A program made the position numbers and the translations under genes. Under the pieces are notes generated by a model. It did not search any database. It had not been told where the DNA came from and saw only the letters and a program-made list of their open reading frames with translations. 64,000 bases of DNA from Limnothrix sp. CACIAM 69d (lineage in GTDB: Bacteria > Cyanobacteriota > Cyanobacteriia > CACIAM-69d). Shown in pieces: positions 12,744 to 56,401 of the stretch (positions within the stretch are counted from its first letter, which is position 1; every line of letters starts with the position of its first letter). The stretch lies in NCBI GenBank assembly GCA_001913845.2, contig MKGP02000049.1:1-64000 (forward strand), in the 5' to 3' direction.

Positions 12744-12890
12744 GGGCTTGTTGTCAAATTGCTTACAACCCTGATTCCACTCACTGTTGGCGGATCGTGG
12801 GGGGTAAGGGGCTTAAGCCCCTTGTCTAGGGTGGTTAGGGTATGACAGATCAACCGTTTTCGCTTGCCCCCAGGAAATGACGACAGGCCC
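12744..12890. mobile_element. MITE family A, intact copy at the pdhA stop codon
   Basis: A 147-bp non-coding element flanked by TA on both sides (12742-12743 and 12891-12892). The ends are inverted repeats: GGGCTTGTTGTCAAATT at the left and, read on the reverse strand, GGGCCTGTCGTCATTTCC at the right. The middle holds the palindromic core AGGGGCTTAAGCCCCT near 12807-12822. The pdhA stop codon TAG is formed by the flanking TA plus the first G of the element. There is no transposase frame. TA duplication suits mobilisation by an IS630/mariner-like transposase or a TA-targeting IS5-family group; which one is not known. Confidence 0.85.
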
Positions 12891-14138: not shown

Positions 14139-14280
14139 GTCCTAACTGCCCTAGACAAGGGACTTAAGCCCCTTGTCCCCCACGATGTCCTAACTGCTCT
14201 AGCTCAGGGGTTTCGGCCCCTTGCCCCCACGATCTTGTCACGGTGGAGTCAGAGCTTTAGGCGGCTTGACGACTAGCCCT
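14139..14280. repeat. Degenerate MITE family A copy with duplicated core
   Basis: The right edge GACGACTAGCCCT matches the reversed family A end with one change. The body contains two consecutive copies of a 47-48 bp segment, 14139-14186 and 14187-14233. Each begins GTCCTAACTGC, carries a version of the core palindrome and ends CCCCCACGAT. The second core is degraded to AGGGGTTTCGGCCCCT. The outer left end could not be fixed. It lies downstream of nothing on the plus strand, between the pdhA start and the YiaA-like gene. Confidence 0.65.
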
Positions 14281-16750: not shown

Positions 16751-17215
16751 CTGGGATAGTCTCCTCGAGAGTCGGGGGAGGAAGGTTGGGAAGGTGGGGA
16801 TTTTGTTCCCCTCATGCTTGCAACTTACCCAGGTTACTGGGGATTCATATCAACCGCAGCAGAATTTTTTTGGGGTCAAGGGAAAAAGCCTGAAAACCCT
16901 TACCAAACAAGCATGTTCGAGAGTTAACCCCAAGCAATTTTTGGGTGGCGATTGCATCAGGATCAGGATTCTTGCGATGTTAGCGGACTGGCGTAGCACC
17001 TGATCAGCACCATTTTTCGGGATGCCCAAGGAATGCCTTTTGGGAGATGCTGAACTCTAGGTCAACTCCAGTACTACGGCAAGCTTAATTTTGATAGGTC
17101 AGCTCAAATGATTGCTACCGTTGCCAAATCGTTCAGTGGCAAGGGGCTTAAGCCCCTTGTCTTCCACGCTCCGTTGACGGTGGGATCAGGGTTTCAGGCG
17201 ATTTGACGACAGGCT
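16751..17215. other. pilA upstream region, no gene
   Basis: This 465-base spacer holds the pilA leader and presumably its promoter, plus a truncated family A element at its distal end (see 17138-17216). No open frame with coding character was found. Confidence 0.5.
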
Positions 17216-17216
17216 C
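17138..17216. mobile_element. MITE family A, diverged copy at a methyltransferase stop codon
   Basis: The right half matches family A in reverse: the core AAGGGGCTTAAGCCCCTT (17140-17157), then GGGTTTCAGGCGATTTGAC and the terminal GACGACAGGCTC next to TA (17217-17218). The TAG stop of the 17216 gene is made from that TA plus the element's first base. The other half, expected to start near 17060, is too diverged to define, so only the supported part is given. Confidence 0.7.
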
Positions 17217-21462: not shown

Positions 21463-21748
21463 GGAGCGCCATCATTTCCTGGGATCCAGCCGAGCCGATT
21501 GCTTTCCCCGGCTCCCGTCGTCGTAACAAGGGGCTTAGGTCGTGTCGTCAAATCGCCTGAAACCCTGATTCCACCGTTGGCAGATCGTGAGGGACAAGGG
21601 GCTTGAGCATCTTGTTACAACAACTGGGACATGGAAAATCAATCGTTTTCATCTGATCCTAGGAAATGACGACACGCCCTAAGACCCTCGCTGCCTAGCG
21701 ATTCGGTAACGGTAGCATCAGGTTCTCCGAGGATTTGGCGATGGCCCC
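21462..21748. mobile_element. MITE family A, outer copy interrupted by a second copy
   Basis: The outer element lies between the TA of the era stop (21460-21461) and TA at 21749-21750. Its ends are GGGAGCGCCATCATTTCC and, reversed, GGGGCCATCGCCAAATCC. Its core AAGGGGCT|TA is split by another complete element (21538-21679). Removing that element and one TA leaves 143 bp, the family length, and restores a CTTAAG centre. Confidence 0.8.
21538..21679. mobile_element. MITE family A, inner copy nested in the core of another
   Basis: A 142-bp element bounded by TA at 21536-21537 and 21680-21681. Inverted ends are GGTCGTGTCGTCAAATCG and, reversed, GGGCGTGTCGTCATTTCC. Its own core is the variant CAAGGGGCTTGAGCATCTTG. 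The target TA is the centre of the outer element's CTTAAG palindrome. It has no coding capacity. Confidence 0.85.
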
Positions 21749-22382: not shown

Positions 22383-22873
22383 GGGAATCACCAATTGTTG
22401 ATTAGCCCTAGCCCAGCATTGCCCAGCCCAATGTTGCTTAGCCCAACACCGCCAAGCTCGGTTGAAAACTGAAACTGCTCAACCGTCATAGACACCGCAC
22501 CACGCAGGAGAGGCTAGCCCAGCCAGCCAGTATAACAACCGAGTTTTGTCGGTTGCCAGGGGCGATCAACTCTCAGAGGATGTCTGAAAAGTGTCTTTTG
22601 GCACGGGCAATGCACCAATAGTCGTGGGGGCAAGGGGCTTGAGCATCTTGTCTTCGTCGATCGATGAGGCGTGCAGAGTATCGATTTTGGCTTTTCAGAC
22701 ATCCTCTCAGGCTAGTAGCGTGGCTGCCTTAATTCGTTGGATTAAATGATATGGCTGTTACCGTCACCTGATCGTTAAGCAGCAAGATGCTCAAGCCCGC
22801 TGTTACCACGACTGGCTCCGCAACTTTGACCCAATGTATTCAGCCTGTCGCGCTACTAGGCTTTGGGCTGCCC
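22383..22873. other. Spacer holding MITE family B and a core fragment, no gene
   Basis: Besides the element at 22576-22706, the spacer has a short repeat-rich stretch of GCCCAGC and TTGCCCA motifs near 22405-22450. At 22782-22798 it has an isolated reverse copy of the variant core (GCAAGATGCTCAAGCCC). No coding frame is supported. Confidence 0.55.
22576..22706. mobile_element. MITE family B, intact copy
   Basis: A 131-bp element with 16-bp perfect inverted ends GAGGATGTCTGAAAAG (22576-22591, and reversed at 22691-22706) and a TCA duplication on each side (22573-22575 and 22707-22709). The middle carries the variant core CAAGGGGCTTGAGCATCTTG, the same variant found in the nested family A copy. 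A TNA target and such ends recall the IS5-family IS1031 group; no transposase is present. Confidence 0.85.
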
Positions 22874-35386: not shown

Positions 35387-35607
35387 AGGACAAGGGCGCT
35401 ACAGCGGGCGAACAATCAGACAGCCAAACATCAGACAGCCATAGGGTGGCAATGGAAAACAGCGAACAAAAGGAAAACGAACAAGCGAAAAGTGAATAAG
35501 AACAACCAAAAACCAAACTAGCTAAAACTTTTTTCGTCAGCTTCTCCGGATCAACCGTATGGTTCTGCGAAGGGAAAAGACAGGTAGATGCACCCTGACG
35601 ATATCTC

Positions 35608-35640
35608 AGCTCTCCGCCTTCGGGTGGGGAGCTTTTTTTT
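35608..35640 (+). terminator. Orphan intrinsic terminator (end of a candidate small RNA)
   Basis: An 11-bp stem AGCTCTCCGCC / GGTGGGGAGCT with two wobble pairs encloses the exceptionally stable UUCG tetraloop and is followed by eight T. It faces the plus strand, yet both flanking genes are on the minus strand. The nearest plus-strand gene upstream ends 6 kb away at 29421. A short transcript starting between about 35390 and 35570 is therefore likely. Confidence 0.75.
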
Positions 35641-35940: not shown

Positions 35941-35961
35941 ACAAGGGGTTTAAACCCCTTG
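35941..35961. repeat. Core palindrome with compensated centre, next to thiS stop
   Basis: ACAAGGGGTTTAAACCCCTTG is the family core with CTTAAG changed symmetrically to TTTAAA. It lies nine bases beyond the thiS stop and may be the remnant of a shortened family A element, because the TA of the stop is followed by AGGGTGGGG. No clear outer end is visible. Confidence 0.6.
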
Positions 35962-46634: not shown

Positions 46635-46806
46635 GGCCGATCGCCCGGATTCGCAAACCCTCGGTTCTTACGTCGCAGGATCCGGGGGGGCAAGGCGCTT
46701 AAGCGCCTTGTCTGGAGTGGGTGTTGGTTTAAGGTCGTGATTGATCTGGGATGATCACCCGTTGGCGATCATCACCCGATCGACCCCCTGGAAACCCAGT
46801 CAGCCT
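46634..46806. mobile_element. MITE family A, copy exactly between two convergent stop codons
   Basis: A 173-bp element from the TAG of the glycosyltransferase-like gene (TA at 46632-46633) to the TAA of the polyprenyl synthase gene (TA at 46807-46808). Left end GGGCCGATCGCCCGG and AAACCCT match the family; the right end reads CCCCCTGGAAACCCAG then GCCT. The core GGCGCTTAAGCGCC has two complementary substitutions. A local duplication of GATCATCACCCG-like sequence explains the extra length. Confidence 0.72.
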
Positions 46807-55352: not shown

Positions 55353-55484
55353 GAGGATATCTGAAAAGCTAAAATTGTCGCCCTGTGAGTTGGATTGATC
55401 AACGCAGACCAGGGGCTTAAGCCCCTTGTTCCTAAGGCTACTAGCACCTTTGCAAGCTCCCCCAGTCACTTCTCAGACCTCCTC
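55353..55484. mobile_element. MITE family B, diverged copy at the fraE-like stop codon
   Basis: A 132-bp element with inverted ends GAGGATATCTGAAAAG and, reversed, GAGGAGGTCTGAGAAG. Flanks are CTA (55350-55352) and TTA (55485-55487). The latter is the TAA stop of the fraE-like gene on the minus strand. The middle carries the perfect core AGGGGCTTAAGCCCCT. Length matches the intact copy at 22576 (131 bp). Confidence 0.78.
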
Positions 55485-56303
55485 TTAAAACTCCCGGCGC
55501 GAAAAGGCAAAAATTGCCCCACACAACAGCAGCACAGCGTATAAAACCCCATACACCGCATCACCGATCAACAGATGCCCCTCGGGAATCAGGCCATACA
55601 CGGCGAGGTTTTTAAGGTTGAACCGCTCTAAATCCGGCAGGATCAGATAGAGAATTTCTGTCAGCCGCTGCATGAAGGGATCTTGAAGCTGAATCCCGAT
55701 CGTCAGCAGGTTCCGGCTGATGTGGCCCATTAGGTAAATCGCCAGGGTCAGCACAACCGCCAGCAGGGGGCTGGTGAAGGATCCCAGCAACAGGGTCACC
55801 GCCGCAATCAACACCAGTTCCAACCAAGCAAACAGGGCCGTCAACACCATGGCACTGAGTTCAAAGCTGGCCCGTCCCCACAACCACAGGCCCACCGTTT
55901 GCACCAGCGTGGCCCCCGTGACCCAAGCCGCCAACAACATCGACAGACCCAAGTGCTTGCCCAGCATGAATTCTGTGCGGCTGAGGGGTTTGGCGATCGC
56001 GAGCAGAATGGTGCGGCGTTCAATTTCGCGATCGATCAGCCTTGTGCCCACCAAGATCGTCACCAACAGCCCCAGCAGGCTGGTGGCGGCCAAACAGCCA
56101 TCGAGCACGATTTTGCCAGCGGAGTCACCAGCGGAAATTAAGGGCACTAGGGCGATCGCCAGCACCAGGGCTACGGCATAGACCAAAAGTAAATAGCCGA
56201 TTTTGGCGCGCCAAGCCTCCAAAAAAGCATTGTGGGCGATCGCCCAAATTCGCTGGCCACTGAACCCAGCCAAGAATGCTCGCCAACCTGTTAATTGACC
56301 CAT
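55485..56303 (-). CDS. fraE: ABC-2 type permease, FraE-like
   Basis: About 272 residues from ATG 56303 (MGQLTGWRAFLAGF) with six hydrophobic helices: near 32-50, 60-95, 110-135, 150-180, 185-205 and 240-262. LVGTRLIDREIERRTILLAI and LSRTEFMLGKHLGL are ABC-2 permease patterns. In Nostoc, FraE is a permease encoded after fraC and fraD and needed for heterocyst maturation and diazotrophic growth. Here the order fraC-fraD-fraE is kept, though with a 239-base repeat-containing gap before this gene. An ATPase partner is not adjacent. FraE function in a non-heterocystous filament is unknown. Its stop codon coincides with the target duplication of a MITE. Confidence 0.75.
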   Translation of the reverse strand: MGQLTGWRAFLAGFSGQRIWAIAHNAFLEAWRAKIGYLLLVYAVALVLAIALVPLISAGDSAGKIVLDGCLAATSLLGLLVTILVGTRLIDREIERRTILLAIAKPLSRTEFMLGKHLGLSMLLAAWVTGATLVQTVGLWLWGRASFELSAMVLTALFAWLELVLIAAVTLLLGSFTSPLLAVVLTLAIYLMGHISRNLLTIGIQLQDPFMQRLTEILYLILPDLERFNLKNLAVYGLIPEGHLLIGDAVYGVLYAVLLLCGAIFAFSRREF

Positions 56304-56401
56304 GTTCCTGACGAATTCTGAACGCAACGTGAATACAAGATAGAAAGGGCAAAGCCGATTAATCCAACATCAACTAATCCAGCGCCAATTAATTCAAGAC
56401 G

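Follow-up and report, generated by a model that had tools for sequence, protein, structure and literature searches.

How do mini-elements with unrelated ends come to carry the same centre? The question is raised by two copies of a MITE family, here called B, at 22576-22706 and 55353-55484 of the window (the whole 64-kb stretch of DNA analysed here), whose core recurs in a second family, A, with different ends. A first-pass annotation had described the B copies as 131-132 bp long with TNA-type targets, and had suggested that cores are exchanged between elements or are themselves functional. We compared the window with 400 kb of sequence of G002, a syntenic sister species (92-96% identical) that served as the source of orthologous empty sites, and followed the core through the 4.57-Mb genome to which the window belongs (G000) and beyond. 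Exact 20-mers were counted genome-wide, and family and nest counts cover 2.15 Mb of G000, or 47% of it, base by base.

MITEs of the window

The description of the two B copies is borne out by G002, which has a single TCA at the site of copy 22576 and a single TTA at that of copy 55353. A single TA likewise stands at the site of A copy 12744, and G002 also lacks the A copy at 21538 and both degenerate copies (near 14156 and near 17140). The MITEs of the window are mobile. Copy 22576 has the ends GAGGATGTCTGAAAAG...CTTTTCAGACATCCTC flanked by TCA on either side, and family B combines terminal inverted repeats at both ends with a target duplication confirmed by empty sites. In 2.15 Mb it comprises 47 paired copies, mostly of 130-132 bp with 16-bp terminal inverted repeats; family A has 43 full-length copies, mostly of 142 bp, with TA targets and the ends GGGCCTGTCGTCA. 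The core lies centrally in A (TA-type), in B (TNA-type) and in a third family, C (family ends CTAGTAGCGCGGC). The GCTTGAGCATC variant of the core had been assigned to one A copy, one B copy and a solitary fragment at 22782-22798. It does occur in A at 21538-21679 and in B at 22576-22706, but the supposed fragment is the core of an intact 148-bp C element with the ends CTAGTAGCG...CGCTACTAG. That A and B share one core despite their different ends also holds, except that this core measures 20 bp rather than the 18 bp first given. The features are collected in Table 1.

Table 1. Core-bearing features of the window and their counterparts in the sister species G002
Feature	Position	Strand	Remark
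MITE A, 147 bp, V0 core, TA target	12744..12890	+	not in G002
Core in degenerate A copy (A-type right end 14267-14279)	14156..14175		orthologous G002 site coreless
Core in degenerate A copy (right end near 17216)	17140..17159		orthologous G002 site coreless
MITE A, 142 bp, V1 core	21538..21679	+	at central TA of half core (AAGGGGCTTA / A / TAAG)
Intact copy of MITE B (131 bp) with duplicated TCA target	22576..22706	+	empty site in G002
Core of B copy 22576, V1 (CAAGGGGCTTGAGCATCTTG)	22631..22650	+
Third MITE C, 148 bp, ends CTAGTAGCGTGGC / GTCGCGCTACTAG	22712..22859	+	orthologous copy in G002
Core of C copy, V1-like CAAGATGCTCAAGCCCGCTG	22783..22802	+	G002 ortholog carries CAAGGGGCTTAAGCCCCTTG
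Solitary core V3 CAAGGGGTTTAAACCCCTTG	35942..35961		G002 ortholog is CAAGGGGGCTAAACCCCTAG
Solitary core CAAGGCGCTTAAGCGCCTTG	46691..46710		G002 ortholog is CAAGGGGCTTAAGCCCCTTG; paired change, palindrome kept
Degenerate copy of MITE B (132 bp)	55353..55484		empty TTA site in G002
Core of B copy 55353, CCAGGGGCTTAAGCCCCTTG (V0 with one change)	55409..55428

The TTA target of B copy 55353, at 55485-55487, is at the same time the stop codon (TAA, minus strand) of an ABC-2-like permease gene, 55485-56327 (-). At 35582-35640, about 300 bp from the solitary V3 core, there is an Rfam match to NsiR1, the nitrogen stress-induced RNA. As for an autonomous parent of A or B, no pair of their ends flanks a transposase in 2.15 Mb, and searches for DDE_3 and DDE_Tnp_1 returned no parent transposase, only fragmentary DDE transposases that lack B-type ends of their own. 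Fragments of DDE_Tnp_1 lie at contig ends of G000 (L253, L254, L255), one of them directly beside a B copy; the end of that element (GCTTTATAAATCAGCTCT) is unlike the ends of A and B.

Copy number and variants of the core

The core CAAGGGGCTTAAGCCCCTTG is a 20-bp palindrome with 238 exact copies in G000, and two congeners have 272 (G001) and 109 copies. The reversed core, taken as a control, has no copy in any genome counted. Within the window, eight near-matches to the 18-mer core were found where 0.04 are expected. Among 386 sampled cyanobacterial genomes, 17 contain the core, and these are scattered across several families. The 220 exact or near copies in 2.15 Mb of G000 could be sorted by the similarity of their flanks into families A, B and C, small groups, and about 50 unclustered copies; the latter, which have no recognisable A, B or C ends, have in common a defined stretch of about 28 bp, GGGGG-core-TCT. 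No Rfam family matches the core, and no paper containing its sequence was found in the open literature.

Two variants proved informative. V1 (CAAGATGCTCAAGCCCCTTG) differs from the V0 core by three substitutions, and single-step intermediates between the two are essentially lacking among the core copies in 2.15 Mb. It has 53 exact copies genome-wide in G000 and 9 and 5 in two congeners; 14 other genomes with the core have no copy of V1, which is limited to the genus. All three families, A, B and C, include copies with V1, which stands in either orientation relative to the element ends and weakens the core hairpin on one strand. V3 (GGGGTTTAAACCCC), a version that keeps the palindrome, occurs in several families and is dominant in one genome, G087.

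Few exact cores lie outside the phylum among the loci returned, and these may be chance palindromes. Three exact cores occur within 2 kb of spirochaete DNA, in Brachyspira pilosicoli (L184:1996, 3570, 3811), and probably represent a local, unrelated hairpin repeat. The core is nearly absent from viral contigs (5 stretches only), so that spread by phages is not indicated.

The same core between other ends

Outside the genus, at least seven further types of terminal repeat enclose the same 20-mer at their centre, so that in cyanobacteria the core is common to at least ten kinds of non-coding mini-elements with unrelated ends. The additional ends are TATAGCGGTTC in Leptolyngbya PCC 6406 and Phormidium FACHB-1136, GGCAGCTTGTA in Pseudanabaena CAN_BIN31, TAAGCTGT in Snowella, TATAGCA in Symploca, AACTTACGCA and ATACCAATT in Leptolyngbyaceae SM1_4_3, GTCAGAACT in RM1_406_9 and CTAGTACTCGA in Leptolyngbya RL_3_1. 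With a threshold of at least 12 of 14 matching positions, terminal repeats flank 15 of 81 cores outside the genus, compared with 6 of 226 places taken at random (p = 1e-5). MITE D of Leptolyngbya PCC 6406 has 31 perfect-ended copies of 106 bp, every one of which contains either the core or a variant that is one base away from it.

The core is better conserved than its surroundings. Pairwise identity of core and flank is 0.99 versus 0.86 in MITE D (29 copies, first 80 bases), 0.91 versus 0.71 in A and 0.90 versus 0.66 in B. Since in A and B the 10 bp adjoining the core are hardly better conserved than the remaining flanks, the edge of conservation is that of the 20-mer. In the cross-family comparison A somewhat resembles B and C just outside the core, so the ancestral unit may have been larger. 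A-type ends also enclose a different palindromic centre (GTAGGGG...CCCCTAC) in elements of about 188 bp (L069:4834-5022, L096:12040-12228, L101:3866-4053, L101:16023-16288), so that here, too, one type of end goes with more than one centre.

Core variants on the trees of ends

The trees of ends were built from a full-length comparison in which the core was masked, because a profile that included it matched every family through the core. On these trees the core changes between V0 and V1 at least eight times for B ends and at least six times for A ends, counts that are rough minima since many branches are weakly supported. Clustering of all cores by end type, which according to the first-pass annotation would have refuted exchange, is thus not what the trees show. 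V1 is nevertheless non-random on them, indicating that most cores are inherited together with their ends. Individual pairs provide the firm cases. The ends of the B copies L096:12968 (V0) and L125:4686 (V1) agree in all of 111 compared columns, and those of L050:11903 (V0) and L070:16580 (V1) differ at one column. Between G000 and G002, the orthologous C elements are mismatched at 5 of the 20 positions of the core, with about 46 identical bases on either side of it (Fisher p = 0.008). As V0 is palindromic, the presence of V1 in both orientations fits donors aligned on the core alone. Taken together, these comparisons of sequences support the earlier suggestion of exchange between elements. In G000 one core haplotype has repeatedly taken the place of another, in both orientations, within elements that are otherwise unaltered. 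The elements would thus evolve as combinations of exchangeable ends with a common centre.

Nesting at the central TA

Interrupted half cores show where elements land. In 17 of 23 cases A sits exactly at the central TA, and in 1 of 23 the inserted element is a B. Half cores flank 10 of the 43 full-length A copies, and cores supply about 0.4% of TA dinucleotides; A elements strongly target the central TA of the core. Intact nests of A in B are present at L034, L052 and L118, and at L049 A lies in a B-like host. In the L118 nest the guest A carries V1 and the host has a B core.

Other nests have collapsed, with the guest core joined directly to the right arm of the host. The order is B-left, half core, A-left, core and B-right in L030; A-left, half core, B-left, core and A-right in L084; and two A-left units, core and B-right in L061. 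The half cores and the guest core form direct repeats of 10-11 bp, so a further such deletion would yield a clean host that carries the core of its guest.

Position of the core relative to genes

Copies outside full-length A and B elements lie between convergent genes in 37 cases, between co-directional genes in 46 and between divergent genes in 10, numbers that are approximate because gene calls are simple ORFs of at least 120 aa. The bias is significant against both spacer length (p = 2.6e-8) and spacer number (2e-5); A and B copies alone have no significant orientation bias. At the solitary core 46691 the changes relative to G002 fall on both arms. The core resembles an intrinsic terminator in its location at gene 3' ends (enriched between convergent genes, depleted between divergent ones), but it is followed by TCT, TTA or CCCC instead of a T-run. 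Judging from sequence, it is possibly a hairpin at 3' ends acting as a weak bidirectional terminator. A functional core, the other suggestion made at the outset, is plausible, given that it is more conserved than its flanks in three families, that the hairpin is kept and that it is enriched between convergent genes.

Origin of the shared centre

We consider it probable, though well short of certain, that MITEs with unrelated ends have come to share a 20-bp hairpin cassette, the core, both by descent and by exchange, each MITE consisting of ends and an interchangeable centre. The first step of a swap would be the insertion of one core-bearing MITE into another, at the central TA(A) of the host core. 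The half cores of 10-11 bp and the guest core could then act as direct repeats, and deletion on one side, and subsequently on the other, would leave the host holding the core of the guest. The cassette might persist because a hairpin at 3' ends, where it would be bidirectional and terminator-like, is of some use or at least tolerated, and because it offers a harmless landing pad. No single element in 2.15 Mb was caught at every step of one swap. It is tempting to extend this reading to many cyanobacterial MITE families, although here the odds are somewhat less than even: such families might be modular, with unrelated ends acquiring and trading one hairpin centre that is their preferred landing site, and self-targeted nesting with short-repeat deletion might be the means by which elements as small as about 100 bp recombine.

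The main rival is ordinary gene conversion over about 20 bp, which would yield the same end product as the collapse of nests. Cores might replace one another without nesting, through conversion or through an oligonucleotide-like templated replacement in which, for example, hairpin fragments cut by SbcCD anneal at replication forks. That the three clustered substitutions move together with nothing else changed in the 111 compared columns is what conversion would produce, as are the two orientations of V1 and the C core altered in place. However, homology between families hardly exceeds the 20-bp palindrome, which is short for RecA-dependent recombination, and conversion predicts neither the observed nests nor the core-to-core deletion products; we regard it as possible but distinctly less likely than exchange through nesting. 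Less likely still is a core that moves by itself as a small dispersed repeat and entered each MITE family and the intergenic sites independently. The defined unit of the copies lacking A, B or C ends, the patchy spread over many cyanobacterial families and the presence in many MITE types would suit such a repeat. Yet a precise empty site was found for no solitary core (the few mapped in G002 are already present there or complex), some unclustered copies look like decayed B, and the position of the core within a MITE does not vary freely but is close to the centre in each of them.

Convergence, with selection for a bidirectional terminator-like or 3'-end hairpin creating the same palindrome repeatedly, is unlikely, a little more so than independent insertion. 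It would account for the bias toward convergent and away from divergent genes, for the paired change at 46691 and for V3 in other genomes, commonest in G087; but an exact 20-mer is far more specific than hairpin function requires, the T-run of a standard intrinsic terminator is lacking, and V1 spreads in spite of its weakened one-strand hairpin. We also looked at an origin in which a RAYT (TnpA-REP) transposase mobilises the core as a REP sequence, with which its palindromic, dispersed and mostly intergenic character would agree. There is no core in the 20-kb stretches that hold three RAYT-like genes, and Y1_Tnp counts do not track cores (28 cores and no Y1_Tnp in G004, 272 cores and one weak match in G001). 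With neither flanking cores at these RAYT-like genes nor a copy number following the transposase, this origin is rejected as very improbable. Finally, it is scarcely credible that A and B are one element family, differing as they do in ends, target types and lengths, or that their cores are alike by chance, which is excluded by the counts (eight against 0.04 in the window, 238 against none for the reversed pattern). The reading that we prefer remains exchange of a hairpin cassette.

Relation to known repeats

MITEs are usually seen as deletion derivatives of single transposons and are classed by their ends. A centre that recurs in at least ten end types, is conserved more strongly than its flanks and passes from family to family implies that the histories of centre and ends are separate. 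The elements described here can be seen as MITEs built around a very small repeat that they share and exchange. With bacterial MITEs of the TA/TNA kind (IS630/Tc1-mariner and IS5 derivatives) A and B have in common inverted repeats, small duplications, noncoding sequence and empty sites; they differ in that a single interchangeable palindromic centre is common to families whose ends are unrelated, and no parent transposase was found in 2.15 Mb. REP/RAYT systems and REPINs are likewise short, dispersed intergenic palindromes, whereas the core sits inside MITEs without RAYT association. HIP1 (GCGATCGC) is also an over-represented palindrome of cyanobacterial genomes, but the core exceeds it in length, is present in far fewer copies, and is found in mobile elements and at gene 3' sides instead of being spread throughout.

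Cyanobacteria also harbour small dispersed repeats (SDRs), repeats of about 21-27 nt that are dispersed on their own as well as within other repeats. Why such very small repeats spread has been a question since SDRs were described, and a safe landing pad and a 3'-end hairpin offer a candidate reason for it, besides a testable route for the reshuffling of tiny elements. SDRs are the closest known kind in their general features: the core is also very short and dispersed singly and in other repeats (238 exact 20-mers; A, B, C and elsewhere). In contrast to them, it is a perfect palindrome central to many MITE families, the favoured target of one of these and swapped between them. SDRs were reportedly described from Nostoc and other cyanobacteria by Elhai et al. 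in 2008.

Short tandem duplications of about 15-40 bp adjoin the core at L087:14108, L061:2660, L064:15632, L040:2886 and L038:10039, and one of the same size lies beside it in PCC 6406 (L203:1014-1071); they look as if the hairpin provokes slippage.
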